From Flavobacterium palustre (GTDB lineage Bacteria > Bacteroidota > Bacteroidia > Flavobacteriales > Flavobacteriaceae): DNA of 64,000 bases. Below are positions 7,451 through 41,857 of this stretch, piece after piece. The notes under the pieces were generated by a model. The model was given only the letters and a program-made list of their open reading frames with translations, had not been told where the DNA came from and ran no database searches. The DNA lies in assembly GCF_014639535.1 (NCBI RefSeq), contig NZ_BMGA01000006.1, positions 124,001 through 188,000 on the forward strand, given 5' to 3'. The first letter of the stretch is position 1. Each line of letters opens with the position of its first letter. Both the position numbers and the translations under genes were made by a program.

Positions 7451-8431
7451 TTAGTCCTGTTCTATAAAATACAATGGTTGCGAATCATTTGCAATTGCAA
7501 TTAAGGCATTATAAATATACTGAGAAACCAAAGCACCTCCTTCAAAATTAATCCGTTCAATATCATCTTCGGGAGTATGATACTGCGGATGTCCTCCCGT
7601 ATGAAAACCTACTGCTGAAATCCCAGCCTTGTAAAACGAAACATGATCCGAGCCTCCTACTTCACCGGCATGAATCACCGGGTTTAAATCGCTGTTTTTT
7701 GCTATTTTTTTCATCAATGCAACACCTCCCGGAAAAGTTCCTGCTCCGCCCATGTAGAGTTGTTTTTCAGCATTCAATCTTCCTACCATATCCATATTGA
7801 GCATTACTTTGACCGCTTTTTTAAGTATTGGTAAATGATTTACAAAATATTTTGACCCTAATAAACCTTCTTCTTCTCCACTGAAAGAGACAAAAATGAT
7901 GCTCCTTTTCAGTTTTTCTTTAGACTTTGCAACTTTTTCCAAAATACACAACAAAGCTGCAACTCCCGAAGCATTATCATCGGCTCCGTTGTGAATGGCA
8001 ACAGTATCCTTTTTTTTACTGCCTGAACCAACTCCTCCCCAACCCCAATGATCGTAATGAGCGCCGATAACAATATATTCCTTTTTTAATTTTTCATCTG
8101 AACCTTCAATAAAACCTACCACATTTTGAGTCGTTACTGTATCCGATTTCATCTTATTGATTCCTTCTTTTACAAACAACTGAAAAGGCTGATAATAATT
8201 GGCTCCAAATTTTGCTAAACCATATTTCCTGAAATATTTTTTAATATATACGGCTGCATGATTATTCTCTTTTGTTCCCGGAAACCGACCTTCCATTTTA
8301 TCGGATGAAAGGTATTTGTCATGCTTGTAAAATGTTTTTGCCAAACGGTTATTTTGGGCAGCAACACTAAGCGTAAAGCATACTGAAAGTACTAAAAAAA
8401 ACGTAAAACCTGATTTTTTAAAAAACAACAT
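7451..8431 (-). CDS. M28-family zinc aminopeptidase, secreted
   Basis: A 326-residue protein with an N-terminal signal peptide (hydrophobic stretch about 8-24, AQNNR after it). The M28 zinc ligands are all present: AHYDH, GADDNASG, GEEEGLLGS, NMDMVGR and HTPEDD near the C-terminus. Members remove N-terminal residues from peptides outside the cytoplasm. It is the last gene of the CutC-permease-propeller-mutarotase run (28 bp after the mutarotase). In a glycopeptide-degrading locus it could trim the peptide part and expose glycosylated asparagine. Confidence 0.9.
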   Translation of the reverse strand: MLFFKKSGFTFFLVLSVCFTLSVAAQNNRLAKTFYKHDKYLSSDKMEGRFPGTKENNHAAVYIKKYFRKYGLAKFGANYYQPFQLFVKEGINKMKSDTVTTQNVVGFIEGSDEKLKKEYIVIGAHYDHWGWGGVGSGSKKKDTVAIHNGADDNASGVAALLCILEKVAKSKEKLKRSIIFVSFSGEEEGLLGSKYFVNHLPILKKAVKVMLNMDMVGRLNAEKQLYMGGAGTFPGGVALMKKIAKNSDLNPVIHAGEVGGSDHVSFYKAGISAVGFHTGGHPQYHTPEDDIERINFEGGALVSQYIYNALIAIANDSQPLYFIEQD

Positions 8432-8459
8432 CTTTGAATCTTTTAAATGAAAACGAAAA

Positions 8460-8795
8460 TTAGCTGAGTTCGAAAATTTTATCCATCAGCAACCATTTTT
8501 CACCGGGTTGAGCTCCCGGAAGTGCTTTTTGAAATTTCCACATCAATGCTTCCCATTCCTGAACTTTTGGATTTGCAGCATCCAATTTTCCTTTTTCTTC
8601 AAAAGAAAAAGCAGCATCAGCTTCAATAATCATAAACAATCGATTTGCGACAATATAAATTTCCAGATTTCTGATTCCTGATTCCTTTATGCTTTCAATA
8701 ATTTCAGGCCATACATTTTTATGAAAGGCTTTGTATTCCTCAATTAAATTGGGATCGTCTATTAAATCTAATGCGAGACAATATTTTTTCATCAT
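8460..8795 (-). CDS. L-rhamnose mutarotase-family protein (probable L-fucose/L-rhamnose mutarotase)
   Basis: A 111-residue ferredoxin-like-fold protein of the RhaM/YiiL family, with YKAFHKNVWPEIIESIKESG near the N-terminus and the conserved WEALMWKFQ in the second half. Family members interconvert alpha and beta anomers of L-rhamnose or L-fucose. The locus encodes a GH29 fucosidase and an FHS permease but no clear rhamnosidase, so L-fucose is the better guess. It starts MMKK; the second Met could equally be used. Confidence 0.85.
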   Translation of the reverse strand: MMKKYCLALDLIDDPNLIEEYKAFHKNVWPEIIESIKESGIRNLEIYIVANRLFMIIEADAAFSFEEKGKLDAANPKVQEWEALMWKFQKALPGAQPGEKWLLMDKIFELS

Positions 8796-8827
8796 TTATT
8801 CTTATTTATAAAACTATCGTTTCTCTA

Positions 8828-9880
8828 TCATTTGGTTAATTCAAATACCACATGTTTAATATACTTTCTATTATAAGTGTATAAAACATGAATCTTTCCG
8901 TCACTGCTTTGGATTATTGCAGGATAACTGAATTCGCCTTCAGGCTGGTATTCCAAATCAAATAACTTTTTCCAATGGATTCCGTCTTTTGAATGCTCTA
9001 CATCCAACACATTGCGTCCATAAAACCAGTCTTTTCCTTGTGGCAAAGGATTGTTAACCAATAAAAAAGATTTTTTATTCAATGTAAGGGCATCAATACC
9101 TGAATTGGAATTCACAACAGCAATGCTATCGGTATTTTTCCAGCTATTACCATAATCTTCTGACCAGCTCGTTATGAGTTTATTGTGTTTACTTCTAAAC
9201 AACATTTGCACCTTTTTATCCGAATGCACTAAAAAAGTGGGTTGGATAATTTCAAAATGCTGCTTGTTTTCAATGGCTATTTTTGTCCATTTTTCTGTGG
9301 TCTCATTATAAGTTTCCACATGGCTCCGCCATTCATTATTTTCAATACTTTCAGTACTACTTCCGCATAAAATAACACCCGAAGTTATCTCGATTGGTTT
9401 GTTTTTTATAGGACCTAAAATACCTTTGGGCAAATATTTGGGACTACTCCATGTTGTTCCGTTATCTTTCGAAATTAGCATCGCTCCAAACCATTCTCTT
9501 GGATTTTTTCCAATTTTATAAAACAAATACAGCTTTTCACTTTTACTCTTAAATAAAACAGGATTCCAGCAAGGCAAGGTATCTCCCTGTTGAATAAGAG
9601 GTGAAACCAGATTTTGCGGTGCAGACCAGCTTTTATCTTTGTATTTAGAAAAATAAATACCTACATCTTTAGCTCCTTCGTATTTTCCGCCAAACCAGGC
9701 TGCCATGATTTCATTTGGCTTTACTTCTGCTAATGTAACAGCATGACTATTGTTTGTAATAGGCTGATCGGTTATAAAAGTACTGCTGATAGTATTTACT
9801 TTTGGTGACTGCTTTAACGAAGAACAGCCAACGCAAACCAAAAACAATAAAAAAGAGGAATATTTCAATTTTAAAATCAT
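8828..9880 (-). CDS. Sialidase-like BNR beta-propeller lipoprotein
   Basis: A 350-residue protein with a lipoprotein signal (FLLFLVCVGC, Cys about 19). Asp-box repeats are visible: SKDNGTTW, SEDYGNSW and a shortened SKDGIHW, which mark a six-bladed sialidase-type propeller of the COG4409/COG4692 kind. The arginine-bearing FRIP-type motif of classic GH33 sialidases is not obvious, so true sialidase activity is uncertain. Another propeller hydrolase, such as an L-rhamnosidase-type enzyme, is possible. It lies between the permease (12 bp gap) and the mutarotase (32 bp gap), so it probably acts on a terminal sugar of the same substrate. Confidence 0.7.
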   Translation of the reverse strand: MILKLKYSSFLLFLVCVGCSSLKQSPKVNTISSTFITDQPITNNSHAVTLAEVKPNEIMAAWFGGKYEGAKDVGIYFSKYKDKSWSAPQNLVSPLIQQGDTLPCWNPVLFKSKSEKLYLFYKIGKNPREWFGAMLISKDNGTTWSSPKYLPKGILGPIKNKPIEITSGVILCGSSTESIENNEWRSHVETYNETTEKWTKIAIENKQHFEIIQPTFLVHSDKKVQMLFRSKHNKLITSWSEDYGNSWKNTDSIAVVNSNSGIDALTLNKKSFLLVNNPLPQGKDWFYGRNVLDVEHSKDGIHWKKLFDLEYQPEGEFSYPAIIQSSDGKIHVLYTYNRKYIKHVVFELTK

Positions 9881-9892
9881 TAAATTTTTAAT

Positions 9893-11224
9893 TTATTTTT
9901 TTCTTAATCCTAATTGATGTCCTGCTACAGCATAATACAAAATCACAAGATAGCATGGCAGCAAAATCCAATAACCTTTAGTCGAAGCGGTTGCAGTTGC
10001 TAAAGCTTCATTCATTCCTTGTGCCAAATATTCCGCTTTATTTCCATCAACTAATTTTCCGTACAAAGGCGGAATAATTGCACCACCTGAAATTGCCATA
10101 ATCAATAAGGCCGAAGCAGTTTTAGTAAATTTGCCCAAACCTTTTAATGTTAATGGCCAAACCGCAGGCCAAACCAAAGCATTTGCAATACCCAAAGCGG
10201 CAACAAACAACACGGAAACAAGTCCTGAAGAAAATACAATACAAAAAGAAAGCAGAATTCCTAAAACAGCACTCGCTTTTAAGGCAAATGCCTGACTAAT
10301 GTATCTTGGAATTAAAAATGCTCCCAAACCATAAGTAGCCACCATAGCCATTAGGGTAAATGTGGTAAAAAATTTGGCATCAGCAGCCGGAAAACCCAAT
10401 GCAATTCCGTAGGCAATAATGGTATCACCGGCAATAACCTCAACCCCTACATACATAAAAAGGGTGAGCACTCCCAACCATAAATGCGGAAACTGAAAAA
10501 TACTCGTTTTAGTAGTTTCTCCTTCTTTAGATTCGCTTTCTGTTTGAGCTTCAACATCCGGCAAAGGTGCTTTTCTAATTAAAATTCCCAAAACAAACAG
10601 AGCTATTGCCATAATAATATAAGGCATCACCACACTATCGGCCATGGTATTTAATAATTTGGCTTTTTCTATGGCGCTTACTGTATTTAATTTTTCGTTG
10701 ATTTCGTCAATTCCGGATAACAAAATAGCTCCAAAAATAAGAGAACCCAAAGCTCCTGCCACCTTATTAGCAATTCCCATAATAGCAATACGTTTAGCAG
10801 CACTATCAATTGGTCCTAAAATGGTTATATAAGGATTAGAAGCTGTTTGTAACAAAGTCATTCCGGCACCTTGAATAAAAATACCCGTCAAAAACATCCA
10901 ATAGGTTCTTGCCTCGGCAGCGGGTATAAATACCAAAGCACCAATTCCCATTATAAATAAACCTAAGGACATTCCTTTTTTATATCCAACTTTGGATAAA
11001 ATAAAAGATGCCGGTAATGCCATCACTACAAAAGAAATATAAGATGCCGAAGCCACTAAAAGCGACTGAGCCGACGTTAATTCGTTGATGGTTTTCATAA
11101 ATGGAATCAAAGCGCCATTAATCCAGGTTACAAAACCAAAAATAAAGAATAGCCCCGCTATAATTATAACTGGAATTAATGCTGTATTTTTTGTTTGAGA
11201 AGACGATATACTATTACTATTCAT
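9893..11224 (-). CDS. FHS-family MFS sugar permease (L-fucose/glucose/galactose type)
   Basis: A 443-residue inner-membrane transporter with about 12 hydrophobic helices. FIFGFVTWINGALIPFM (about 28-44) and the paired LLQTASNPYITILGP are signatures of the fucose permease branch. Family members carry L-fucose, galactose, glucose or GlcNAc with protons. It sits 25 bp after cutC and 12 bp before the propeller gene, in one direction, and with the mutarotase suggests fucose or another released monosaccharide. A paralogue starts the window at 1-426. Confidence 0.93.
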   Translation of the reverse strand: MNSNSISSSQTKNTALIPVIIIAGLFFIFGFVTWINGALIPFMKTINELTSAQSLLVASASYISFVVMALPASFILSKVGYKKGMSLGLFIMGIGALVFIPAAEARTYWMFLTGIFIQGAGMTLLQTASNPYITILGPIDSAAKRIAIMGIANKVAGALGSLIFGAILLSGIDEINEKLNTVSAIEKAKLLNTMADSVVMPYIIMAIALFVLGILIRKAPLPDVEAQTESESKEGETTKTSIFQFPHLWLGVLTLFMYVGVEVIAGDTIIAYGIALGFPAADAKFFTTFTLMAMVATYGLGAFLIPRYISQAFALKASAVLGILLSFCIVFSSGLVSVLFVAALGIANALVWPAVWPLTLKGLGKFTKTASALLIMAISGGAIIPPLYGKLVDGNKAEYLAQGMNEALATATASTKGYWILLPCYLVILYYAVAGHQLGLRKK

Positions 11225-11249
11225 ATTTAATTTTTTAAAATTTGATTCT

Positions 11250-11975
11250 TCATGAACGAATCAAATCAACTATATTTTTAATTTTATCATAATCGGAATG
11301 AACTATACTATTTTCATTAAAAAAAGTACTACTGTTCATTGGAATTTTTCCTTCATCTTTTAGATGTTCAATTTTGGAAGCCGAACAATGAATTTCCTGA
11401 AATCCCTTATTTTTAAACAAGAGTGCATTCTCTTTATTGATCCCTCCTCCCGGAAGAATTAGTAACTTGTTTTGGGTCTTTTTTGCTAAATTTTGTAACA
11501 ATTGTATGCCTTCCTCGGCTTTAAGCTCCTTTCCAGAAGTCAAAATTCGGTTTGCACCGATAATTACAAGCTGTTCAACTGCTTCTAAAGAATTTTCTAT
11601 CCAGTCAAAAGCTCTGTGAAAGGTAAATGATAAAGGTTTAGACAATTCAATTAATTCTTGCGTTCTGATAACATCAACTGTATTATCGGCTTTCAAAACG
11701 CCTGAAACAATTCCATGACAACCCAATTCTTTACAAAGCTTAATATCTGTTTTTATAATTTCAAACTCTTCTTCTGAATACGTAAAATTTCCACTACGCG
11801 GCCGTATCAAAACATGAACAGGAATTGAAAGATTTTCTATCACTTTTTTTATCAAACCATAAGAAGGTGTAATTCCTCCAACTGCTAGTTCTGAACACAA
11901 TTCGATTCGATGCGCTCCTGCATTTTGCGCATTTATTGCTGATTGATAAGAGGAAGCACAAATTTCAAGAAGCAT
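11250..11975 (-). CDS. cutC: CutC-family protein
   Basis: A 241-residue TIM-barrel protein with the family motifs MLLEICASSYQSAINAQNAG, RIELCSEL, GGITPS, HVLIRPR and LILPGGGIN. CutC was named for copper homeostasis, but the role of the bacterial proteins is unsettled and the gene is often found inside Bacteroidota glycan loci, as here. It begins the five-gene run that leads to the M28 peptidase, after the terminator at 12037-12066. Confidence 0.9.
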   Translation of the reverse strand: MLLEICASSYQSAINAQNAGAHRIELCSELAVGGITPSYGLIKKVIENLSIPVHVLIRPRSGNFTYSEEEFEIIKTDIKLCKELGCHGIVSGVLKADNTVDVIRTQELIELSKPLSFTFHRAFDWIENSLEAVEQLVIIGANRILTSGKELKAEEGIQLLQNLAKKTQNKLLILPGGGINKENALLFKNKGFQEIHCSASKIEHLKDEGKIPMNSSTFFNENSIVHSDYDKIKNIVDLIRS

Positions 11976-12111: not shown

Positions 12112-13680
12112 TTAATTAACGTCCCACCAAAGTTTAGTGCTTCCTTTATCAGCACCTCCTAACAATTGAACTGCTGCATTAACCGCATCACCATTAGTAC
12201 TATATTCATTAGGTAAATAAGTAATACGTTTCATGATTCCTTTTCCAATTGTAGCATCCTCAGTAGTTAATAAAGGATATAAAATATTTGCATCTGTTCT
12301 ACGTAAATCAGACCAAGCTTCCCATGACTCTGGGAAAAGACCTAAATATTTTTGAATTGCAATTTGTTTCTTTTGATTTGCTACAGTTCCTGACCATGCT
12401 ACTGGTACATTCACAGGTGGTGTAGAATCAGTATACAAACTTCCAAATGTAGGTACAGCACCAGTAGTAGTTCCTGCAATATAGGCAGTTATTTGGCTTT
12501 CATCTGTTACACCCCATTGTTGTAGAGACAAACGAATACCATCTTCATATAATGCTTTCGCTGTTCCTCCCATACTCCAACCTTTCAAAACACCTTCAGC
12601 ACGATTGAAATCGGTCTCAGAAGCCATCATTACTTCGATGTCTTTTGTAACATTATCTGAAAATGTAGTTACCTGATTCGTTCCACTAAAGTTTTTACCT
12701 TGATATGGAATTGTTGATCCAATACCATTTGGTAAACCTACATATTGTCCTTTGTACGTAGAAGTATTATCTAATACAGGACTAAACCATTTTGCCATAC
12801 GAGGATCGTTATAACCTTTAAGAATACTTTCCATATCTGCAGTCATATAAAAACCCCAGTATTTCATAATATCCACAAAGTTATTATAAGTATCTTTTGT
12901 TACTTTATAATAAGCATTATCAGTATTTGAAACCATTACTCCGGCAGTAACAGCTGCTTCTGCTTGCGTTTTTGCTTTTGCAGCATCAATATCAGAAATT
13001 CTTAAAGCTAAACGCAATCTTAATGAATTTCCAAACTTTCTCCATTGTTCAATGTTACCGCTATACAAAGCATCATAGTCTTTAAATACACCAACTGTAG
13101 TTGCTGAACTAGCGCTCAAAGTAGCATTAGCAGCCTCTAAAAGTTTGAAGAAATCAGTATACATTGCTTCTTGAGAATCATAAGCTACAGATTTACCTCC
13201 AATACCTGCCTGAGAATAAGGAATTGGTCCCCACTCATCAGTAAATCTGTGAAACATATACACTTTCCAGATATCTAAAACTGCTAAGGCTTCTGCGTTT
13301 CCAGCTGCTGCTTTATAAGTATTTAAAAGAGATGGAACGGCAATTGTATAAAATCGCAACCAACCTCTACTTCTCCATCCATCATTAACACCATTTGCAT
13401 CAGTAGCACCACCAGGATAAGCCATATAATGTGAAAACACCATTGAATGTAGGGCTGTAGCTAATCCATAAGTTCCATAATCATCTCCAGGTAAACTCCA
13501 TGAAGCATTACCAATTCCTTTATATAAAGCATTTGCAAATGATGGTCCTGCCATAGTTGCATCTAACTGATCAGAAGTAAGTGTATTCGGATTTGTATTT
13601 ACTTCATTAAAATCACCTGTACACCCTGTTAACTGAAACAAGAAAGCTACTGCTAAAAATTTAACTATATTGTTTTTCAT
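12112..13680 (-). CDS. SusD/RagB-family outer-membrane glycan-binding lipoprotein
   Basis: A 522-residue lipoprotein (signal ending QLTGC, Cys about 20) followed by DFNEVNTNPNT, the usual SusD start. TPR-like helices make up the bulk, and EAWSDLRRTD near the C-terminus is a SusD family signature. It caps the SusC channel and binds oligosaccharide at the cell surface. It lies 10 bp after the SusC gene and is followed by a strong terminator. It belongs to the SusD-like_2 style with several aromatic-rich stretches. Confidence 0.95.
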   Translation of the reverse strand: MKNNIVKFLAVAFLFQLTGCTGDFNEVNTNPNTLTSDQLDATMAGPSFANALYKGIGNASWSLPGDDYGTYGLATALHSMVFSHYMAYPGGATDANGVNDGWRSRGWLRFYTIAVPSLLNTYKAAAGNAEALAVLDIWKVYMFHRFTDEWGPIPYSQAGIGGKSVAYDSQEAMYTDFFKLLEAANATLSASSATTVGVFKDYDALYSGNIEQWRKFGNSLRLRLALRISDIDAAKAKTQAEAAVTAGVMVSNTDNAYYKVTKDTYNNFVDIMKYWGFYMTADMESILKGYNDPRMAKWFSPVLDNTSTYKGQYVGLPNGIGSTIPYQGKNFSGTNQVTTFSDNVTKDIEVMMASETDFNRAEGVLKGWSMGGTAKALYEDGIRLSLQQWGVTDESQITAYIAGTTTGAVPTFGSLYTDSTPPVNVPVAWSGTVANQKKQIAIQKYLGLFPESWEAWSDLRRTDANILYPLLTTEDATIGKGIMKRITYLPNEYSTNGDAVNAAVQLLGGADKGSTKLWWDVN

Positions 13681-13690
13681 AATTTATTTA

Positions 13691-16600
13691 TTAAAAGTTG
13701 AATTTTACATTAAATCCAAAGTCTCTTGTACTTGGAATGTTATAAGATTCTATTCCTTGAAGGTTACCAACACTTACTCCTTGTTCTGGATCAAAATATT
13801 TCGCTTTATTAACAAAGAAGAATAAATTTCTACCTACTAAAGAGAAATCAACTGCTGTAAATGGTGATCTTTTCAAGAATTTACTTGGAAGTGAATATCC
13901 TAAAACAACTTCTCTTAATCTAATATTCGTAGCGTCAAAAACAAAATCCTCTGCTGATTTTGGATCCCTACTAGCTACTTGTGACCAATAATTTTCTGCA
14001 GTAATAGAAGTTGTATTTGGAGAATAAGTGCCATTACCATTATCATTAACACCATTAACTACAAAACCATCTCTACCAGCTAAAGTGATATCACTAACAC
14101 CTGCTCCAGCCATTCTTGCCTGAGAGTAAGAAATCGTTTTTCCTCCCATACGGAAATCTACCAAGAAACTAAGTCTAAAATCTTTATAAGTAAATGTATT
14201 TTGTAAACCTGCTGTCCAGTCTGGATTAAAACTTCCAGCCAACACATCAAATCCAGAAGTAAATTCAGGTAATCCACTTGTAGCATTAACAATAATTTCT
14301 CCAGCATCATTACGTTTAAATCCTTTAATATACAAATCTCCGTAACCTCCACCTTTTTTAACAATTGTTTGTGCTAACCTTTCGTAACCTGTAGAAAGAT
14401 TTAATTCATCTTGTCCTTCAGAAAGACTTAAAACTTTTGTTCTGTAAGTTGCAAAGTTTGCTGTTGCATCCCAAGTAAATTTTTCATCATCGAAAATTTT
14501 AGCATTCAAGACCATTTCAAAACCTTTATTTTGAATTTTTCCACCGTTAATAACTTGTTTAGAATATCCTGATGACTCTGGTAAGTTAATTGTAAAAATC
14601 TGATCTTTAGTATCTGTTTGGAACCAAGTAAAATCTAAACCAATTCTATTCTTAAATAATCTTGTATTTAAACCAAATTCTGTTGAACTTGAAATTTCCG
14701 GTTTAAGATTTGGGTTGTTTTTTAAAGTTGAAGATTGTACAACACCTCCGTTAAAACCATAAAAATACAATTGATTAGCTAAAAGGTAAGGATCTGTAGC
14801 ATTACCTACCTGAGCAAAAGAACCTCTCACTTTTAAGAAAGACAACACATCAGAATTAATATCTAACATATCCGTAACAATACCTGATAAACCAACAGAA
14901 GGATAAAAGAAAGATCTGTTATCTGCTGGCAATGTTGAATCCCAGTCGTTACGTGCTGTAACATCTAAATACAAATAGTCTTTATATCCTAATTGTGCTG
15001 AACCATACAAAGAATTCACTTTTTTATGACTATATTCAGGAGTCACAGTAGTGCTTTGTAAATTAGTCAATGTAAAATAATTTCTCTTAGTTAAAGTTCC
15101 GCCACTGCTTAAACCTGTACTTTTTTGATTTCTGGCATTTCCTCCAAAATTGGCATTTAATTTAAAATCACCTAATTCTTTTTTGTAAGACAAAAGGAAA
15201 TCTGTATTCATTTCTAAAACATCTCCAATCGACTCTGAATAACTTCCATAATCCTGATTTAAGATAGCAACAGCTGCATAACGTGAACTTTTAGATTTAT
15301 TAGTAGACTGGTCTAAACCGGATCTAACCATTAAACTTAATTCTTTTGTAAAATCATAAGTCAAAGATCCAAAAGCGATAATTCTGCTTCTTTCATCAGT
15401 TCTTAAATTTCTTTTAGCTAACCAAAAAGGGTTTGCTCCCAAAGTACTTAAAGTATTAGCGTCTGGATAATTATATCTGATTTGCCCGGCATCATCAATA
15501 TATTCAAAATCTTTGTATTGACTGTAAGGTAAACTTCTAGGCATTGTGTAAACGGCTTCTCCAATTCCTCCTTCACCAACACCAATAGCATTTTCAATCT
15601 TTTGATTAATGTAATTGGTTTTAACATCCAATTTTAATTTGTCTGTTAAACTACTAGTCAAACGTAAATTCACATTATGTCTCTCAAGTTCATTACCAAC
15701 AACAATTCCCTCAGCTGTAGTATTTGTGTATGAAAAATATCCTTGCGTTTTTTCATTACCCATAGAGGCAGTTAAATTTTTAGACCAGTTATAACCACCT
15801 TTAAAAAAGTCTGAAGAGTTATTAGGCTGTGGTGTAAATGCATAAGTAGAAGAACCATCATAATTAGGATTATGACTTAATTGCCATGCTGCAACGGATT
15901 GACCTTCCATTTTTGGTCCCCAACTAGTTTTGGATAAAGGATTATAAACTCCTCCCGCTCCTTGACCATAAACATTTTGTTGATTCAACAAATTATAAGC
16001 ATTTGATGCCATGAAATTTGAAGAAACTGAAATTTTTGCTTTTCCTTCTTTAGATCCACTTTTAGTTGTTATTACGATTACCCCGTTACTAGCTCGTGAA
16101 CCGTATAAAGCTGCTGCCGAAGGACCTTTCAATACAGTGATACTTTCAATATCTTCAGGGTTGATATTAGAAATCCCATCAAAACTTGTAGTTCCTCCAA
16201 TATCTGTAGCTGGAGAAGTCACACTATTATCCATAGGAACTCCATCAATAACATATAAAGGTTGGTTATTCCCGGTTAGAGAACGATTCCCTCTTAATGT
16301 AATTCTGGAAGAACTTCCTACTCCACTTCCTGTAGTCGAAAAGTTAAGTCCCGCTACTTTTCCTGAAAGTGAATTAGCTACGTTAAGTGATCTGGCTTCC
16401 GAAAGTTCTTTGGTAGAAACTGTCTGTGCCGAATAAGTCAACGATTTTTTCTCCCTTTTAATACCTAAGGCTGTTACAACAACCTCCCCTAGTTGTTCAG
16501 CATCTTCTGCTAATGATACATTTATAATAGTCTGGTTCCCTACAACAACTTCTTTTGGTGCTGATCCTATATAGGAAAAGACTAAAATTGCCGATTGATT

Positions 16601-19765: not shown

Positions 19766-19821
19766 TTTATTTTTTTTTATTATCTGCTTTTCATTTTTTA
19801 AGCCGAAAACAGCTTTGATAA

Positions 19822-19837
19822 TTTGGCTAAAGCCAAT
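19822..19837. repeat. Short palindromic repeat TTTGGCTAAAGCCAAT, copy 1
   Basis: The same 16-mer recurs exactly at 39775-39790. Both copies are intergenic. It looks like one unit of an interspersed palindromic repeat family. Confidence 0.6.
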
Positions 19838-19842
19838 ATTTC

Positions 19843-20008
19843 TACCGCAAATTCGCAAATTATGATTACAAAATAGTTTGCTTTTTTAAACCATTAAGAA
19901 ATTAAGTTTAATTAAGTCTTCATAAAACTTAATTTCTTAATGGTTTGATTTTTACAGACCAATTTTATAGTAGTAATTATATCTTTTAAAATTTGCGAAT
20001 TTGCGGTA
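19843..20008. repeat. Nested inverted repeat between GH92 and GH3
   Basis: The outer arms are perfect 19-mers (19843-19861, beginning TACCGCAAATTCGC, and its reverse complement at 19990-20008). Inside them, a second pair of perfect 22-mers (19888-19909, beginning AAACCATTAAGAAAT, and 19925-19946) encloses a 15-nt loop. Together they fill almost the whole 250-bp gap. It may act as a transcription or mRNA-processing signal inside the operon, or be a non-autonomous palindromic element. Confidence 0.8.
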
Positions 20009-32441: not shown

Positions 32442-33407
32442 CTATAAACTGTTATCTTTTGTAAATTGGATTACTTCACTTAATTTCCCAAAAGCAATTG
32501 CTACTGCTGTATCTGCTGCACCGTAATATACGGCTAATTTATCTTCTTTTGTATCATGCAAAGCGGCACATGGAAAAACTACATTAGGAACATCTCCAAC
32601 CATTTCATAAATTTCTGCTGGTCCTAATAAATACGGCTGTGTTCTGTATTTAACCTGATCTGGCGAATCAACATCTAAAAGTGCTGAACCCATGGCATAA
32701 CGGAAACCATTACAAGTATTAATTACACCGTGGTAAATCATTAACCAACCTTCATCGGTAAGAATTGGAATAGGTCCTGCTCCTACTTTGGTACACTGCC
32801 AGGCACTTTGTTCAAAAGGACTTGGTTTCATAACCAAACGATGTTCTCCCCAATACTTCATATCCGGACTGTAACTAATCCAAATGTCTCCAAAAGGTGT
32901 ATGTCCATTATCACTTGGACGACTCAACATCGCATATTTTCCATTTATTTTTTGTGGAAACAAAACACCATTTCTATTGAAAGGTAAAAAGGCATTTTCG
33001 CATTGAAAAAATTCTACGAAATCAAATGTGTATCCAATTCCAATTGTTGGTCCGTTATAGCCGTTACACCAGGTAATCCAATAGCGATCTTCAATAAAAA
33101 CCACACGAGGATCATATTTATAAGCTGATTCGATCATTTCAGTATTTCCAGATTGCATTACAATGGGTTCATGATTGATCTCCCAATTGATACCATCTTT
33201 ACTAAAACCAGCAAAAATATTCATTTGGACTGCTTTGTTATCGCATCTAAAAACACCAGCAAATCCGTCTTCAAAAGGAACAACTGCACTATTAAAAATA
33301 CTATTTGATGATGGTATAGCGTATCTGTCAATAATTGGATTTTCAGAATATCTCCACATTACATCATTACTGTTTTCGGGTCTGTCTTGCCAAGGAATAC
33401 TGCTCAT
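32442..33407 (-). CDS. GH130 phosphorylase (probable beta-1,4-mannosyl-N-acetylglucosamine phosphorylase)
   Basis: A 321-residue five-bladed propeller without a signal peptide, so cytoplasmic. Family features include [49 protein letters not shown] with the catalytic Asp, and [10 protein letters not shown]130 enzymes split beta-mannosides with phosphate. The N-glycan-type members act on Man-beta-1,4-GlcNAc to give Man-1-P and GlcNAc. The N-glycan gene set around it favours that activity over mannobiose phosphorolysis. The start ATG at 33405-33407 follows the repeat at 33456-33556. Confidence 0.88.
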
Positions 33408-35519: not shown

Positions 35520-37763
35520 TTACTTTTTTAATCCCCAACTTTTATTAGGTTCTGATCCCATTACAAAATGTAAAATTCCGCCTTGTATTATTTGTTGGTG
35601 TGAGATTGCTGTTTTATTAAATGGAACACCATTAAGTGTTGCTGACTGGATATAAAAGTTTTTATCAGAAACATTTTCTGCTTCAATTACAAATGATTTT
35701 CCTCCTTCAAGATTGATTTTTGCTTTTTCGAAAATTGGGCTTCCTATTTCATACTCGCCGGAAGCAGGATTCATCGGATATAATCCCATAGAACTGAAAA
35801 CATACCAGGCTGACATTTGTCCGCAATCTTCATTTCCGCTTAAACCGTTGGGCGTTGTATTGTATTGCGTATCTAAAATATGACGTACCCAATATTGCGT
35901 TCTCCAAGGCTGACCGGCATGATTAAACATATAAGCAATATGATGACTCGGTTCGTTTCCGTGAGCATATTGACCAATTAATCCTGAAATATCTGCCGAA
36001 ACATTATTTCCTGTAATTTCTGAACTTTCTGTAAACAGCTGTTCTAAACGTTTTGAGAACAACTCATTACTTCCGTGCAATGCAATAAATTCATCTACAT
36101 TATGAGGTACAAACCAGCTGTGCTGCCAGGCATTTCCTTCGGTATAATCGGTATGTTCTCTATGATTGGAATGTTTAGGATCGAAAGGTTCATTCCAGGA
36201 TTTTCCATCTGCTGCTTTTCCTCTCATAAATCCTGTTTTAGAATCAAATAAATGCTGATACGCTTTAGAACGATTTGTAAAAAACTGATAATCTTCATTT
36301 TTACCTAAGGCTTTTGCCATTTGCGCTACACACCAGTCATCATAAGCATATTCTAAAGTAATTGTTACTGATTCGTCTAATAAATTATAAGGAATGAAGC
36401 CGTATTTTTTGTAGAAATTCAATCCGCGTTCGTCCTGCATCATGGTCGTTTTCATAGCTTCGAATGCTTTTTCGGCATCAAAACCTTTTATTCCTTTTAA
36501 GTAAGCATCGACAATTACAGGTATCGAATGATAACCTGTCATAGTATTGGTTTCGTTAGCATATAATGTCCAAACAGGTAATATTTTTTTGGTATCGTAA
36601 TACGCTAACATAGAGTTTACAATGTCTGAAGCTTTGTCCGGAGCCAGCAAAGTCAATAAAGGATTTTCGGCTCTAAAAGTATCCCAAAGTGATAAAGTAG
36701 AATAAGCCGTATAATCTTTTGCTGTAGCTATCTCATCATTTTCTTTTCTGAATTGTCCATTTTTATCGCTGTAAGTAACCGGTGCAACTTGTGCATGATA
36801 CATAGCTGTATAAAAAATAGTTTTAAGAGAATCAATTGGTGTTTCGACTTCAATTTTGTTTAAAGCTGAATTCCAAATGCTAGCTGCATCCGATTTTGTG
36901 TTGTCGAAAGTCAATTTTTCAGCATCTAAATTATCTTTGGCATTAGCCACACTTACCGATGATAAAGCGACTTTTATCAATAATTCTTCTGAATTTTTCG
37001 CGTCAAAAAATAATTGGGCTGATGTATTTTCGCCTTCCGTTTTATTTGCTGTAACAATTTGCTTATTGGCTAATAAAACAGTTTCTGAAATTGGTTTTGA
37101 AAACTTAGCCACAAAAAATACTTTCTGATTTTTTGCCCAACCCGTGCTAAAACGATATCCGCTTATAGTGTATTGGTCTTCAATTGTAATTCCGGTTTTT
37201 AAGGCTTTATCCCAATTGATAGCAAAACCAAGATCAATAACTACGGATTGTTTGTCATTTTTTGCAAATGTATATTTATGAAAAGCGGTGCGTTGTGAAG
37301 CCGTTAATTCGACATTAATTTTAGGATCTTCAAGAAAAACCTGGTAATATCCCGGACTTGCTTTTTCGTTAGTATGGCTATAAGATGATTTATAAGGGAA
37401 TTGATCTCTTGAAGTTGTTTTTGTAGTGAGATCTAATTTTTTATTGGTTGGCATAAAAAGAATATCAGCTAAATCGCCAATACCTGTTCCGCTTAAATGC
37501 AAATGACTAAAACCGGCAACAACAGCATCCGAATAATGATATCCGGAACACCAGTCCCAGCTGGAAATTCCGTTGTCAGGACTCAGCTGAATCATTCCAA
37601 ACGGAACCGTCGCGCCCGGATAAGTATGTCCATGGCCTCCTGTTCCTATAAATGGATCAACAAAATTTATTAAATCTTCATTGTTACTGTTAATTTTCTC
37701 ACTTTTTGTTTTACAATTCGAGAGCAAAACTGCAGTTAAAACAACCAAAGCAATATTCTTCAT
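35520..37763 (-). CDS. GH92 alpha-mannosidase lipoprotein
   Basis: A 747-residue protein starting at the ATG at 37761-37763, which gives a lipoprotein signal (MKNIALVVLTAVLLSNC); a Met 24 bp upstream is less likely. GH92 features are FVDPFIGTGGHGHTYPGA, GFSHLHLSGTGIGDLADI, YSTLSLWDTFRAENPL, GNAWQHSWFVPH and GNEDCGQMSAWYVFSSMGLYP. It is an exo-alpha-mannosidase, probably on high-mannose N-glycans. It heads the 20-kb hydrolase run and is divergent from the sensor kinase gene, so the promoter between them controls the locus. It differs enough from the GH92 at 20016 to suggest another linkage specificity. Confidence 0.95.
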   Translation of the reverse strand: MKNIALVVLTAVLLSNCKTKSEKINSNNEDLINFVDPFIGTGGHGHTYPGATVPFGMIQLSPDNGISSWDWCSGYHYSDAVVAGFSHLHLSGTGIGDLADILFMPTNKKLDLTTKTTSRDQFPYKSSYSHTNEKASPGYYQVFLEDPKINVELTASQRTAFHKYTFAKNDKQSVVIDLGFAINWDKALKTGITIEDQYTISGYRFSTGWAKNQKVFFVAKFSKPISETVLLANKQIVTANKTEGENTSAQLFFDAKNSEELLIKVALSSVSVANAKDNLDAEKLTFDNTKSDAASIWNSALNKIEVETPIDSLKTIFYTAMYHAQVAPVTYSDKNGQFRKENDEIATAKDYTAYSTLSLWDTFRAENPLLTLLAPDKASDIVNSMLAYYDTKKILPVWTLYANETNTMTGYHSIPVIVDAYLKGIKGFDAEKAFEAMKTTMMQDERGLNFYKKYGFIPYNLLDESVTITLEYAYDDWCVAQMAKALGKNEDYQFFTNRSKAYQHLFDSKTGFMRGKAADGKSWNEPFDPKHSNHREHTDYTEGNAWQHSWFVPHNVDEFIALHGSNELFSKRLEQLFTESSEITGNNVSADISGLIGQYAHGNEPSHHIAYMFNHAGQPWRTQYWVRHILDTQYNTTPNGLSGNEDCGQMSAWYVFSSMGLYPMNPASGEYEIGSPIFEKAKINLEGGKSFVIEAENVSDKNFYIQSATLNGVPFNKTAISHQQIIQGGILHFVMGSEPNKSWGLKK

Positions 37764-37797
37764 AAACGATATTCTTAAATTTAACATTAAATTTATA

Positions 37798-37829: not shown

Positions 37830-37843
37830 GGACAACAAAAAAA

Positions 37844-37851: not shown

Positions 37852-37891
37852 AACACCACAAAAAGGTACTAGAAACCTAAAAATCCAAACA

Positions 37892-38950
37892 ATGATTTTC
37901 AATTCAAGCAAGTTTCATAAAATCCCGCTGCATTACCATGTTATCTTTTGGTTAAGCTACTTTGTATTTAACACGTTTAGATGGGGAAGTTATTTTAATG
38001 ACTATCTGTATTCATTAAAATCTAATTTACTCGGTTTTCCTATTCACATGACATTGTGTTATTTGAATATTTTAGTGCTCATGCCTAATTTAGTCTATAA
38101 AAAAAAGTATATTTCTTATGTAATTATTTTATTGATTGCCTTGTTTAGCATGGTGCTAATAAAATTCAATCTTACCTATTTATTAATTAGTCACAATGTA
38201 TGGCCGGAAGGTCCTGAAAATATAAAAGAACTATCACTAAACTATACCGTGGACATGATGATAGGCGAACTTTATGTAATTACTTTTGTAACTGCTATTA
38301 AAATCACTTTAGACTTTATAAAAGAACATAAAAGAGTTACGGATTTAGAAAAATCCAATTTGGAAACCGAATTATTATTTTTAAAATCCCAAATTTCCCC
38401 GCACTTTTTCTTTAACACATTGAATAATATCTATTCGTTATCGGTCGAAAAATCGAATAAAACACCTAAAATTATCCTGAAATTATCGGAGTTAATGCGC
38501 TACATGCTTTATGAAACGCAGAGTAAAAAACAAACCTTAGAAAATGAAATTCTCTGCATTCAAAACTACTTAGACTTAGAACGAATCAGACATGATGAAA
38601 GACTGGAAGTCAATATGTACATTTCAGGTGATATACAGGATAAAGAAATTTCACCAATGTTATTACTCACATTTATTGAAAATTCTTTCAAGCACGGTGT
38701 CAATAAAAATGTCGGACATGTAAAAATAGACATCAATTTCAAAATCAAAGGAGATTTTCTCTATTTCTCGGTTTCAAACCCCATGCCTGCCATAACTATA
38801 CATGTAGATAATTTTAACAAGTCAAGTGGTATAGGAATTGAAAATGTAAAAAAAAGACTCGAATTAGGGTACAACAAAAACGATTATAAGCTATCAATTA
38901 AAAATAAAAACAATATTTTTGTGATTAAGCTTAAAATTAGAGTTTCTTAA
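37892..38950 (+). CDS. LytS-type membrane sensor histidine kinase
   Basis: A 352-residue protein with four hydrophobic segments in the first 145 residues (for example VIFWLSYFVFNTF, YVIILLIALFSMVL), no separate sensor domain, and a His_kinase domain (LKSQISPHFFFNTLNNIYSL with the phospho-accepting His). The ATP-binding N box is LLTFIENSFKHG. It is paired with the LytTR regulator 61 bp downstream. It is divergent from the hydrolase operon. The signal it senses is unknown; glycan loci more often use hybrid two-component or sigma/anti-sigma systems. Confidence 0.92.
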   Translation: MIFNSSKFHKIPLHYHVIFWLSYFVFNTFRWGSYFNDYLYSLKSNLLGFPIHMTLCYLNILVLMPNLVYKKKYISYVIILLIALFSMVLIKFNLTYLLISHNVWPEGPENIKELSLNYTVDMMIGELYVITFVTAIKITLDFIKEHKRVTDLEKSNLETELLFLKSQISPHFFFNTLNNIYSLSVEKSNKTPKIILKLSELMRYMLYETQSKKQTLENEILCIQNYLDLERIRHDERLEVNMYISGDIQDKEISPMLLLTFIENSFKHGVNKNVGHVKIDINFKIKGDFLYFSVSNPMPAITIHVDNFNKSSGIGIENVKKRLELGYNKNDYKLSIKNKNNIFVIKLKIRVS

Positions 38951-39011
38951 ATAATTTTATTCCCCTTCCCTCTTTTTTGAATTGTTTTGACTCTTATAAA
39001 ATTATAATAAA

Positions 39012-39725
39012 ATGAAAATTAAATGTCTGATAATAGATGATGAGCCATTAGCAATTAATGTAATTAAAAACTATATCGAACAAATTGAAGATTTAGAATT
39101 AGTTAATTCATTCAGCAATTCCATAGAAGGATTGAATTTTTTAAAAAACAATACTGTCGATGCTATATTTTTGGACATCAATATGCCGGTTTTGGATGGT
39201 ATTAATTTTATAAAAAGTCTGGAAAATCCGCCGTTGCTTATCATCACAAGTGCTTATGATGAATTTGCGATAGAAACTTACGAATTGGACGTTTTGGATT
39301 ACTTAGTAAAACCCATCGAGTTTCCAAGGCTGATGAAAGCAGTCAACAAAATCAACAAAAGACTCGATACAAGCCATAAAACACCTCAGGATAACAGTAA
39401 AGAACATCCGTTTATTTTTGTCAAAATTGACAAAAAGAAAATGAAAAAGATTTTTCTGGATGAAATTTTAGTTATCGAAAGTTTGAAAGATTATTTAAAA
39501 ATCAACACCCTTTCCGGTAAATACATCATCCACAGCACCTTATCTGATTTCACTAATCTATTACCCGAAAGAGATTTTATCAGAATCCATCGTTCTTACA
39601 CTGTAGCTATTGATAAAATTGACGCTGTAGAAGGAAATAGCATCGAAATTGAAGGTTTAAGATACGTTATAGGAAGATCGTATATTGATGAAGTAAAACA
39701 ACGAATATTAAATTCGGCAATTTAA
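39012..39725 (+). CDS. LytTR-family response regulator
   Basis: A 237-residue regulator. The receiver domain has the acidic pair IIDDEP, the phospho-acceptor in AIFLDINMPVLDG and the Lys in YLVKP. The C-terminal LytTR DNA-binding domain (about 135-235) shows IFVKIDKKKMKKI, ILVIESLKDYLKINT and FIRIHRSYTV. It is the partner of the LytS-type kinase just upstream and probably controls the glycan operon or its own promoter region. Confidence 0.95.
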   Translation: MKIKCLIIDDEPLAINVIKNYIEQIEDLELVNSFSNSIEGLNFLKNNTVDAIFLDINMPVLDGINFIKSLENPPLLIITSAYDEFAIETYELDVLDYLVKPIEFPRLMKAVNKINKRLDTSHKTPQDNSKEHPFIFVKIDKKKMKKIFLDEILVIESLKDYLKINTLSGKYIIHSTLSDFTNLLPERDFIRIHRSYTVAIDKIDAVEGNSIEIEGLRYVIGRSYIDEVKQRILNSAI

Positions 39726-39748
39726 TACTGCTTTTATAAATTCCATTT

Positions 39749-39828: not shown

Positions 39829-39840
39829 ACTATTAAAAAC

Positions 39841-39873
39841 AAAAAATGCAACCAAAAAAGGTTGCATTTTTTT
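39841..39873. terminator. Bidirectional terminator between the LytTR regulator and nagB
   Basis: AAAAAATGCAACC pairs with GGTTGCATTTTTT around an AAAAAA loop, giving a T tract on each strand. It serves the convergent regulator and nagB genes. Confidence 0.8.
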
Positions 39874-39931
39874 CAGGGTAACTTAGTAAATAACCAAAAA
39901 TAAACTAATTTACTCAACCATCAACTTAATC

Positions 39932-41857
39932 TTAAAAATGATAACGCTTGAATGCTTCAATTGCAGCATATTCAGCTAATCCTAAATCATTGTATTTTTT
40001 TGCGGTGGCTCTGTTTCTATCTTCGGCTCGAACCCAAAATTCTCTGCTGTCATCGCCTTGAAACATTACACCGTCTTTTTGAGACTGGTGGTAAAAAATA
40101 GCATGACGCTTTTTAAGTACCTGATCCGGACTCATAGGAACTGCCATTTCAATTTGGTAGGTTTCCCATTCGTGCCAGGCACCACGGTACAACCAAACCC
40201 AGCAATCATCCATGTAGCTATTGTGTTTTAATTGTTTTAAAGCTTCAAACAAACTGTCCAAACACACCTTATGTGTTCCGTGCGGATCGGCTAAATCTCC
40301 TGCGGCATAAATTTGGTGCGGCTTGATTTCATCAATAAGATCACACATAATTTTAATATCGGCTTCGGTAAGATTGCCTTTTTTTACCGTTCCGGTTTCA
40401 TAGAATGGTAAATTTAAAAAGTGTACATTAGAATCATGAACCCCTAAATAACGTGTAGCCGCTAATGATTCGCTTCTTCTGATTAATCCTTTTAACTGTC
40501 TCACTTCGATAGAATCTATATCATTCTTTCCCTTGTTTTTCAAGAAATTGATAATACTATTGGACTCATTTGATGCTGAATTTAAAACTGATGAAACTTC
40601 AGCAAATTTCAACGCTTCTTCATTAGAAACAGCAATATTTCCTGAGGTTTGATAAGCAATATGTACCTCATGCCCCTGTTCTACCAATCGGTCAAAAGTT
40701 CCTCCCATCGAAATCACATCGTCATCAGGATGCGGACTAAAAATAATCACTCTCTTTTTTGAAGGATTGGAACGTTCCGGCCTGTAAGTATCATCGGCAT
40801 CCGGTTTTCCTCCCGGCCAACCCGTAATGGTATGCTGCAATTGGTTGAACATTTTGATGTTCAAATTATATGCTGTTCCTTCTTCTGCTAATAAACCCGA
40901 CATTCCGTTGTCGTTATAATCTTTGTCGGTTAATTTCAAAATTGGTTTTTTAGTCAATTCGCTCAACCAGACAACCGCTTTTAACTTCAATTCGTCAGTC
41001 CAAACACAAGGTTTTACTAACCAAGGTGTTTTTACACGGGTTAATTCAGACGAAGCTTCGGTATCTAAAACAAAAGTGGTATTGTTATGTTCTTGCAAAT
41101 AAGTAGCCGGAACCTGAGATGACATTTCGCCCTCAATAGTACTTTTTAAAATATCGGCCTTACTGATTCCCCAGGCCAACAGAACGATTCTTTTAGCGGC
41201 TCTTACGGTACCAATACCCATGGTAATGGCTTTTCTGGGAACATTATCAATTCCTAAAAATGCCGGAGCAGCATCCACACGTGTTAAATGATCTAGTGTA
41301 ATGCTTCGGGTACCTGAATTAATATGCGAACCCGGTTCATTAAATCCAATGTGTCCTGTTCTGCCAATTCCTAACAATTGAAAATCCAATCCTCCATACG
41401 ATTTAATCTTCATTTCATAATCAATACAGTATTGTTGCAATTCTTCACTGCTTACATTACCGTCGGGAATATTAATATTTTCCGGAAGAATATTGACATG
41501 ATTAAAAAGATGCTCGTGCATAAAATAATGGTAACTCTGAATATTACTTTTATCCATTGGATAATATTCATCTAAGTTAAAAGTAACCACATTGGCAAAA
41601 CTCAAGCCTTCCTCTTTGTGTAGTCTAACCAATTCCTCATATACTTTTATGGGAGAAGATCCTGTTGCTAATCCCAAAATACAAGGTTCGCCTAATTCTT
41701 CTTTTCGCTGAATTAAGTTGGCAATTTCATGTGCTACTAATACGGAAGCTTCTTTAGAGGAATCAAAAATTACATTGTGAATTTTCTCAAAACGTGTTTC
41801 TTCAAACTTTCCCGCTTCTCTATAACTTATACCTTCTTTTATCATTTTAACAGTCAT
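39932..41857 (-). CDS. nagB: Glucosamine-6-phosphate deaminase fused to a PIG-L/LmbE-type deacetylase domain
   Basis: A 641-residue cytoplasmic protein, more than twice the length of plain NagB (about 265). Residues about 1-275 are NagB: LGLATGSSPIKVYEELV, VTFNLDEYYPM with the catalytic Asp, and GIGRTGHIGFNEPGS with the active His. From about 370 a PIG-L domain follows, with the metal motif SPHPDDDVISMGG and DLADPHGTH. NagB turns GlcN-6-P into Fru-6-P and ammonia. The C-terminal domain could deacetylate GlcNAc or GlcNAc-6-P, which would couple two catabolic steps; that is an inference. This fusion occurs in other Bacteroidota. It is the natural sink for GlcNAc from the adjacent glycan locus. 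Confidence 0.93.
   Translation of the reverse strand: MTVKMIKEGISYREAGKFEETRFEKIHNVIFDSSKEASVLVAHEIANLIQRKEELGEPCILGLATGSSPIKVYEELVRLHKEEGLSFANVVTFNLDEYYPMDKSNIQSYHYFMHEHLFNHVNILPENINIPDGNVSSEELQQYCIDYEMKIKSYGGLDFQLLGIGRTGHIGFNEPGSHINSGTRSITLDHLTRVDAAPAFLGIDNVPRKAITMGIGTVRAAKRIVLLAWGISKADILKSTIEGEMSSQVPATYLQEHNNTTFVLDTEASSELTRVKTPWLVKPCVWTDELKLKAVVWLSELTKKPILKLTDKDYNDNGMSGLLAEEGTAYNLNIKMFNQLQHTITGWPGGKPDADDTYRPERSNPSKKRVIIFSPHPDDDVISMGGTFDRLVEQGHEVHIAYQTSGNIAVSNEEALKFAEVSSVLNSASNESNSIINFLKNKGKNDIDSIEVRQLKGLIRRSESLAATRYLGVHDSNVHFLNLPFYETGTVKKGNLTEADIKIMCDLIDEIKPHQIYAAGDLADPHGTHKVCLDSLFEALKQLKHNSYMDDCWVWLYRGAWHEWETYQIEMAVPMSPDQVLKKRHAIFYHQSQKDGVMFQGDDSREFWVRAEDRNRATAKKYNDLGLAEYAAIEAFKRYHF

Follow-up and report, generated by a model that had tools for sequence, protein, structure and literature searches.

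What does the large glycan-degrading locus of Flavobacterium palustre consume, and why does it hold a gene of the CutC family, which is named for copper? The locus occupies positions 7451 to 41857 of a 64,000-nucleotide stretch (hereafter the window; G000:C6:124001-188000, from a 3.97-Mb genome assembled into 36 contigs), and was earlier described from the letters alone, in what we call the original prediction, as a nearly complete N-glycan and glycopeptide utilisation locus. The present analysis indicated that it serves the utilisation of N-glycans and glycosylasparagine, and that it represents a known kind of locus whose gene set is a variant one. As judged from the encoded families, this Flavobacterium locus is likely to serve N-glycans attached to asparagine or short peptides, with the CutC-family protein as a working member of the pathway. 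The CutC gene (11250-11975) was absent from the list of the original prediction, as were a CBM9-like gene (31365-32435) and a histidine kinase/LytTR regulator pair.

Association of CutC with glycosylasparaginase in Bacteroidia

CutC drew attention through its distribution relative to glycosylasparaginase (AGA). Among 295 Bacteroidia genomes, AGA (called at E 1e-50) was present in 128 and CutC (E 1e-20) in 105; both genes occurred in 98 genomes, CutC only in 7, AGA only in 30 and neither in 160 (odds ratio 74.7; Fisher 7.9e-42, uncorrected for descent). As a yardstick, NagA (E 1e-40) was found in 24 of the same genomes, 17 of which had AGA. Distances were available for 64 of the 98 genomes, those with both genes on one contig. 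CutC lay within 400 bp of AGA in 42 genomes, in every case downstream and on the same strand, as against a rough chance expectation of about 0.06 genomes, and of the 36 families having AGA, 14 had CutC on the same strand at a distance of no more than 1.5 kb. This company suggests that CutC is a sugar enzyme.

Sixty AGA loci fetched from the 128 AGA genomes of this class sample gave CutC in 32 and adjacent CutC in 26; these counts and the tree labels below are lower bounds, L107 and L121 being adjacent by the distance test and missed here. When the label "CutC within two open reading frames (ORFs) on the same strand" (30 loci) was mapped onto the AGA tree, it required 9 changes, of which well-supported branches demand at least 7, whereas the mean after label shuffling was 20.4. 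The adjacency thus appears to be in part inherited and in part to have arisen repeatedly. Among the genes up to five ORFs away from AGA, CutC was the commonest (32 of 58 loci, the 60 without G065 and G101), followed by GH20 (22), GH2 mannosidase (22), GH92 (14), ROK (13) and MFS (12), the GH2 mannosidase and ROK neighbours being named by Pfam on one member each.

In two of the seven genomes scored as CutC-only, G229 and G254, an AGA homologue of 48-49% identity adjoins CutC, giving a corrected figure of 100 out of 105 CutC genomes with AGA, which is one-sided because the CutC-less genomes were not re-searched. G139 has ROK and NagB genes nearby, and in G085, for which no AGA was called, an M81 protein follows CutC. 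No clear context was seen around CutC in G032, G107 and G236; in G107, the gene beside CutC gives a weak match to melibiase, and a different contig encodes a strong PNGase F. The surroundings of CutC were also inspected in thirteen more AGA genomes, with neighbours named by BLAST against the window proteins and a few representatives, and by Pfam for some. One of them, G145, was an adjacent case, in which an M28 homologue (52%) adjoins AGA-CutC; in the other twelve, CutC stands away from AGA.

Two other associations were considered and set aside. PNGase F was rejected as a second correlate, as its profile PF09113 matches too widely (148 of the 295 genomes at E 1e-8, mostly weak among the matches listed); above 150 bits, a line drawn after the scores had been seen, it was found in 7 genomes, CutC being present in all 7 and AGA in 6, too few to lean on. 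Replacement of NagA by CutC was likewise rejected, since CutC was present in 19 of the 24 NagA genomes and adjoins a NagA-type amidohydrolase in Novosphingobium.

Gene organization of the locus

Gene families were assigned by a Pfam scan of the window ORFs, with NCBIfam and PDB sequence comparisons for selected proteins. Nineteen minus-strand genes run from the M28 peptidase to GH92a (7451-37787), followed by the plus-strand regulator pair (37892-39725) and a minus-strand NagB-PIG-L gene, as listed below ("by reading" marks features recognised by inspecting the protein N-terminus).

7451..8431, minus: M28 metallopeptidase, signal-peptide-like N-terminus by reading (PF04389, 2.9e-44)
8460..8795, minus: RhaM-type mutarotase (PF05336, 6.1e-32; TIGR02625, 30.2 bits, below the cut-off of 99.6)
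8828..9880, minus: BNR_2 beta-propeller, lipoprotein by reading (PF13088, 2e-78)
9893..11224, minus: MFS sugar importer, NagP/GluP/FucP-like (TIGR01272, 280.5 bits, above the cut-off of 202.55)
11250..11975, minus: CutC-family protein, no signal peptide seen (PF03932, 2.5e-68)
12112..13680, minus: SusD-like lipoprotein (PF12741, 3.1e-109)
13691..16798, minus: SusC TonB-dependent transporter (TIGR04056, 714.9 bits)
17120..19858, minus: GH3 with PA14, candidate beta-xylosidase (PF00933, PF01915, PF07691)
20016..22259, minus: GH92 alpha-mannosidase (b) (PF07971, 1.6e-160)
22271..23755, minus: GH29 alpha-L-fucosidase (PF01120, 2.6e-85)
23786..25648, minus: GH35 beta-galactosidase (PF01301, 3.3e-103)
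25669..27975, minus: GH20 beta-hexosaminidase (PF00728, 4.3e-125)
28046..29065, minus: glycosylasparaginase (AGA), twin-arginine translocation (Tat) type (Asparaginase_2; PDB glycosylasparaginase, 5.8e-126)
29079..30176, minus: GHL10-type TIM-barrel lipoprotein (PF02638, 1.2e-10)
30207..31331, minus: GH18 lipoprotein, chitinase-like (PF00704, 2e-87)
31365..32435, minus: CBM9-like exported protein (PF06452, 5e-11)
32442..33407, minus: GH130 phosphorylase, UhgbMP-like, no signal peptide seen (4udg, 1.4e-151)
33567..35444, minus: SSS-family symporter (PF00474, 1.6e-26)
35520..37787, minus: GH92 alpha-mannosidase lipoprotein (a) (PF07971, 3.5e-179; lipobox scan)
37892..38950, plus: histidine kinase (PF06580, 2.4e-24)
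39012..39725, plus: LytTR response regulator (PF00072, PF04397)
39932..41857, minus: NagB-PIG-L fusion, candidate deaminase and deacetylase (NF002557, 1070 bits, cut-off 384)

All the families named in the original prediction were thus located by Pfam, its "FHS transporter" being the NagP/GluP/FucP-like MFS protein, which scored 404 bits against NF046060, under the cut-off of 625. The window holds a SusC/SusD pair with linked carbohydrate-active enzymes and a regulator, as is characteristic of a polysaccharide utilisation locus (PUL) of Bacteroidota. The M28, rhaM, BNR, MFS and CutC genes are only 12 to 32 bases apart, which suggests co-transcription of CutC with the genes for the peptidase and the carrier; the interval between CutC and SusD is 136 bases. 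The M28 peptidase is a probable glycopeptide-trimming enzyme, and the substrate of the mutarotase is probably L-fucose or L-rhamnose.

Beside the locus lie sugar-nucleotide epimerase-like, nucleotidyltransferase-like and GHMP-kinase genes with a LacI regulator (538-4813), together with a CBM9-like gene (4817-5473). The window also encodes a 928-aa protein (47717-50503) that weakly matches a type IX secretion tail (24.3 bits, under the cut-off of 27).

Assignment of the enzymes

The core enzymes expected of an N-glycan locus, namely GH92, a UhgbMP-type GH130 and AGA, were all present. The predicted AGA matched glycosylasparaginase structures across its mature length in PDB sequence comparison (top matches 3ljq, 5.8e-126, and 1ayy), and its Thr193 aligned with residue 1 of 1ayy_B, the mature beta chain, which is the position expected for Ntn-hydrolase cleavage; its N-terminus, MSNRRDFIKK, is by reading compatible with a Tat signal, in agreement with the Tat export originally proposed. 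The nearest PDB entry to GH130 was UhgbMP (4udg, E 1.4e-151), and the protein appeared cytosolic by reading, as would suit a Man-GlcNAc phosphorylase. Since its gene adjoins that of GH130, the SSS symporter is a candidate importer of Man-GlcNAc.

GH3, GH18, BNR and GHL10 were less sharply defined. The best PDB match of the GH3-PA14 protein was the beta-xylosidase 7zb3 (8.8e-174), while it fell below both NCBIfam xylosidase cut-offs (585.6 of 1350 and 556.8 of 1250 bits) and scored slightly higher against BglX (592.7 of 666 bits). GH18 reached neither the ChiD nor the Endo H cut-off of NCBIfam (174.8 of 750 and 34.4 of 300 bits). For the BNR protein, described earlier as a sialidase-like propeller, the BNR_2 fold family was confirmed, but neither a PDB sequence match at E 0.01 nor an NCBIfam match was obtained; it is a possible sialidase-like exo-glycosidase. 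An AlphaFold2 model of the GHL10 lipoprotein (31 sequences; mean pLDDT 74, poorly modelled at 256-299) retrieved Cwp19 of C. difficile first in Foldseek (5oq3, 6.6e-10), and further neighbours included beta-amylases, a GH164 beta-mannosidase and PgaB with GlcNAc (4p7q, 4.5e-8), all at TM 0.5-0.6. Cwp19 and PgaB are suggestive of an endo-GlcNAcase, although beta-amylases and GH164 rank among the same neighbours; from its place and modelled fold, our guess is that the protein may be a candidate for cutting the GlcNAc-GlcNAc (chitobiose) core.

The PDB relatives of SusD include BT3984 (8uwv) and the chitin-binding AqSusD (8j0p). Lipoprotein-like N-termini were found for SusD, GHL10, GH18 and GH92a by lipobox scan (the GH18 Cys being uncertain) and for BNR by reading. 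Within 7 residues of the lipobox Cys, SusD has two acidic residues (CTGDFNE), GH18 and GH92a one each, while GHL10 and BNR have none; in the portion of the paper available, SDDFE is given as the consensus for surface export obtained from SusD homologues of F. johnsoniae (PMC5080379). These sequences hint, if only weakly, at enzymes facing the periplasm and at a small imported substrate, such as a glycopeptide or glyco-asparagine.

Taken together, catabolism down to the GlcNAc-Asn bond, as the original prediction had it, found good sequence support in AGA, the UhgbMP-like GH130, the two GH92 proteins and the PNGase F of some relatives (see below), and its suggested breadth, covering both high-mannose and complex glycans, is plausible from the enzyme set. 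"Nearly complete" passes over four points: PF09113 (PNGase F) had no match in the genome, a search that did not extend to other PNGase types or other GH18/GH85 genes; the GH18 resembles chitinases and is not a recognised endoglycosidase; the NagA profile gave 24.3 of 225.65 bits, under the cut-off; and the second GH92 pair of the genome is on another contig. That second cluster (L085 and L086, G000:C7:57001-95000) comprises two GH92 genes and a gene resembling SusC, whose neighbour is SusD-like by reading, with a NagB paralogue (61%) nearby. The PIG-L half of NagB-PIG-L (39932-41857) may supply the GlcNAc-6-P deacetylase missing from a genome without NagA above the cut-off.

Conservation of the AGA half and separability of the SusCD half

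The AGA half was compared with 80 named relatives, the best 80 of 132 AGA matches by identity, each as a locus of about 21 kb; the counts of GH3, GH29, PNGase F, histidine kinase, response regulator and NagB in these loci are lower bounds. GH130, CBM9 and AGA (the last by selection) occurred in all 80, GHL10 and GH20 in 78 each, SSS in 77, GH92b in 76, GH92a in 75 and GH18 in 20. Because AGA, GH130 and CBM9 stand together in 80 out of 80 loci, with GHL10 and GH20 in 78, the AGA half is not a chance assembly; its gene order is conserved as well. PNGase F was found in-cluster in seven relatives (L068, L070, L075, L076, L078, L080 and L081), named by Pfam on L068 and by 64-78% identity to it in the other six; the genes of L075, L078 and L081 run off the locus end. 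The galactosidase appeared to be exchangeable, with GH35 in 35 loci, a LacZ-type GH2 (named by Pfam on L012) in 30, both in none and neither in 15 (p 3.9e-11, for loci related by descent). Every locus had GHL10 or GH18 (GHL10 only in 60, both in 18, GH18 only in 2); GHL10 as a proven stand-in for GH18 was rejected, the exclusivity not being significant (p 0.06).

The SusCD half was viewed in eight relatives, six chosen because they matched the BNR gene (found in 12 of the 61 genomes of the genus) and two because they matched CutC. Identity to the window ranged from 31 to 88% for SusC and from 26 to 94% for SusD; BNR was found in all eight, by selection, M28 in seven, and CutC in four, two of these by selection. 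The original prediction had remarked on a single SusCD pair serving so broad an enzyme set, a point weakened by the finding that SusC was only 31-66% identical in six of the eight despite kept neighbours. In F. glycines (G301), the SusC-to-M28 half lies on a contig of 248,950 bases and the AGA locus (L061) on another of 136,709 bases, and NagB (96%) comes directly after SusC (L206), where the window has the GH3-to-regulator segment between the two. The AGA half therefore looks like a cassette able to sit elsewhere, and the window unites two separable modules: the single locus, though real in this genome, is no fixed unit. The SusCD half is less firmly tied to the AGA half than are the AGA half's own members to one another. 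In G065 (L207, G065:C5:18000-37000), PNGase F occupies the place of CutC-MFS and directly adjoins the BNR gene, with SusCD divergent.

CutC outside the class sample

CutC was found in 67 records of a plasmid collection, and 14 were viewed out of 30 listed, 13 from outside Bacteroidota plus Parabacteroides. Of those 13 regions, five were near explicit amino-sugar genes, five near a ROK or BadF kinase, presumably acting on amino sugars, and three without context; the ten of thirteen are not a random sample, because mainly annotated records were chosen, and H21 and H23 were taken as an asparaginase had already been seen in the same records. In Novosphingobium, CutC stands with a SIS protein, a NagA-type amidohydrolase and phosphotransferase system proteins, and GH92 and an AGA of 50% identity are encoded divergently. 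CutC is beside MurQ and ROK in Qingshengfaniella, and near GH20 and M81 in Peteryoungia, NagA, ROK, GH20 and NagB in Kozakia, and GH20, M81 and NagB in Loktanella. It is also near ROK and an Asparaginase_2 protein (35% identity) in Hyphomicrobiales UR115, a BadF kinase in Asticcacaulis and Pseudoalteromonas, an aminopeptidase, an alpha-L-fucosidase and ROK in Alkalihalophilus, and ROK, M81 and an oligopeptide ABC system in Palleronia. Elsewhere, Hymenobacter (H33) showed AGA-CutC with ROK, NagB, MFS, GH18 and GH92, while CutC was absent from the stretch viewed around the AGA of Sphingomonas (H37), and none was found in viral contigs. The M81/MlrC-type protein (L160:9092-10657; L152:3252-4688) recurred beside or near CutC in G085 and the Peteryoungia, Loktanella and Palleronia plasmids, and is perhaps an alternative amidase for glyco-asparagine.

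Comparison with known systems

An exo-enzyme toolbox for plant N-glycans, of which the present locus is reminiscent, is said to have been described by Dupoiron in 2015 in a cluster of Xanthomonas campestris, reportedly with a hydrolytic beta-mannosidase where GH130 and AGA stand here, and with a different phylum and transporter.

The closest relatives appear to be the N-glycan PULs of Bacteroides massiliensis (PMC9522356) and B. thetaiotaomicron (a review), which, in the portions available, share SusCD with GH92, GH29, GH3, a galactosidase, GH20 and GH130, as well as periplasmic exo-trimming. The window locus differs in having AGA and CutC in the cluster, "asparaginase" being absent from the main text of PMC9522356 and PMC10154615. 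It further differs, as far as the available text of those sources goes, in that neither PNGase F nor a recognised endoglycosidase was found in the window genome, and in its histidine kinase/LytTR pair and its chitinase-like GH18 and GHL10 lipoproteins. The alf-2 pathway of Lactobacillus casei for fucosyl-GlcNAc-Asn, as presented in the accessible sections of PMC6960285, likewise pairs a fucosidase with a glycosylasparaginase yielding 1-amino-GlcNAc and Asp; its AsnA2 is without a signal peptide and 28% identical to the Elizabethkingia enzyme, and CutC is not mentioned in that paper. There, the 1-amine is called not metabolizable, and its spontaneous acid breakdown is proposed. No report linking CutC to glycosylasparaginase was found in a literature search that mostly did not cover subscription papers, nor was a CutC-GlcNAc link in titles and abstract openings, or a description of this locus in the same partial texts.

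Proposed pathway and the evidence against it

From these assignments, we propose a pathway in which SusCD would import glycopeptides or glyco-asparagine, and M28 and other peptidases would trim the former to a single Asn. The antennae would be removed in the periplasm by GH29, GH35, GH20, GH3 and GH92, perhaps with the BNR protein, and the chitobiose core cut by GH18 and/or the GHL10 lipoprotein. Man-GlcNAc would enter through the SSS carrier for cytosolic phosphorolysis by GH130, while AGA would hydrolyse GlcNAc-Asn to aspartate and 1-amino-GlcNAc. GlcNAc or its 1-amine would be taken up by the MFS carrier, CutC would act on an amino sugar in the cytosol, with 1-amino-GlcNAc as the first candidate, and NagB-PIG-L would channel the product to fructose-6-phosphate.

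Several observations weigh against this proposal. As AGA is predicted to be exported and CutC cytosolic, the AGA product must be carried in, and the specificities of GH3, GH18 and BNR are still candidate assignments. The Fisher value takes no account of descent. Eight of the twelve CutCs away from AGA (G101, G065, G040, G292, G035, G269, G166 and G256) lie among genes without a match to the locus or its common neighbours, G256 having a GH92 homologue further off. CutC was in the locus of only two of the six congeners chosen by the BNR gene, and the SusCD-CutC-M28 half of F. glycines lies beside NagB on another contig than the AGA half. The CutC regions of E. coli, E. faecalis and Cetobacterium showed no sugar context, and that of Parabacteroides distasonis no amino-sugar context.

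Alternative explanations

As for the chemistry of CutC, it may be an amino-sugar enzyme rather than a copper protein, specifically a glycosylamine hydrolase that, at neutral pH, would split the 1-amino-GlcNAc released by glycosylasparaginase and PNGase into ammonia and GlcNAc, or would catalyse a closely equivalent step; we regard this as a tentative and rather unlikely assignment in this exact form. A cytosolic protein encoded beside AGA could carry out such a reaction. The glycosylamine reading is attractive but not unique, since neighbours such as MurQ and NagA speak for a broader role in amino-sugar metabolism. CutC might act in general GlcNAc/MurNAc catabolism, for example in anomer conversion or GlcNAc phosphate isomerisation, with the AGA link as one instance. 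Consistent with this are the SIS and NagA-type amidohydrolase neighbours in Novosphingobium, those in Kozakia and Qingshengfaniella, the position of CutC beside GH20 and/or GH2 mannosidase away from AGA in G222, G230, G173 and G154, and its glycine-rich motifs, which appear to resemble phosphate sites. The co-occurrence with AGA, far stronger for CutC (98 of 105 genomes) than for NagA, argues the other way, and we judge a general role to have not quite an even chance.

A different question is whether the target is not animal glycans but complex N-glycans of plant (or invertebrate/algal) type, which carry xylose and alpha-1,3-fucose on the core, the GH3-PA14 then being a beta-1,2-xylosidase, GH29 a fucosidase and GH35 a Lewis-a galactosidase. 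Elizabethkingia-type AGA is blocked by core fucose on the GlcNAc, which weighs against such a target, as do the GH3 scores below the xylosidase cut-offs and the slightly higher BglX score. On the other hand, the best PDB sequence for GH3 is a beta-xylosidase, and GH29, GH35 and GH20 also fit. According to the available parts of the sources, B. massiliensis uses a GH3 beta-1,2-xylosidase, GH29, GH92 and a beta-1,3-galactosidase for plant N-glycans (Crouch 2022, PMC9522356), and a GH92 of X. campestris is active on plant N-glycans (review, PMC10154615). A plant-type target thus seems quite possible, though somewhat short of probable.

That CutC is a copper protein, placed beside AGA by a need for copper or by chance, is very unlikely. 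The annotation speaks for it, as does Cys27, kept in 29 of 30 aligned CutCs, and in the available portion of a review, RNA interference or small interfering RNA against animal CUTC raised copper sensitivity and CutC is held to be involved in copper homeostasis; the same review nonetheless describes copper binding by human CUTC1 as weak, a chaperone or trafficking role as unlikely and the exact mode as yet to be defined (PMC11083455). The copper tolerance conferred by cutC overexpression in E. coli has been ascribed to a sigma-E response, citing the MicL paper (PMC6338753, as far as its text was available). CutC of the window clearly belongs to the family (PF03932, 230 bits, cut-off 23.3; human CutC 3iwp, 1.2e-53), sharing homology over about 195-232 residues and common residues with the human (3iwp) and bacterial (1twd, 4r9x and 2bdq) structures, yet those are named for copper whereas the window protein stands in an amino-sugar setting, and it scored 219.6 bits against the copper homeostasis equivalog NF008603, below the cut-off of 311. 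Cys6 varies (14 C and 14 A of 30), while the residues invariant across 24 CutCs are E4, R23, E25, G33, G34, R58, G62, F64, G88, V90, G92, L94, H120, A122, D124, G140, L145, G148, G176 and H196, a set that looks like an active site. No nameable copper gene was seen among the recurrent AGA-CutC neighbours, several of which are unnamed, and the adjacency in 42 genomes against about 0.06 expected also leaves little room for chance.

GH92 and GH130 also occur in mannan systems. Even so, a yeast/fungal mannan or general mannoside locus with AGA incidental is scarcely credible despite the reported action of GH92 on yeast mannan (PMC10154615, in part) and the second GH92 pair elsewhere in the genome, in view of AGA (by selection) in 80, GH20 in 78 and PNGase F in 7 of the 80 relatives and of a GH130 nearest to UhgbMP.

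Implications

The observation behind the original prediction was accordingly confirmed and its interpretation supported in part. As an N-glycan locus, the window adds a Flavobacterium version to a known system, and the lead of interest is CutC. If the glycosylamine reading were true, it would provide for a step where spontaneous breakdown is the sole proposal in L. casei (PMC6960285, from the accessible sections). The CutC family spans bacteria to humans and its function is unsettled; the link to AGA makes this long-open function testable, and the glycosylamine reading, if true, would mean that the whole family, with human CUTC, has a catalytic part in the breakdown of N-glycans.

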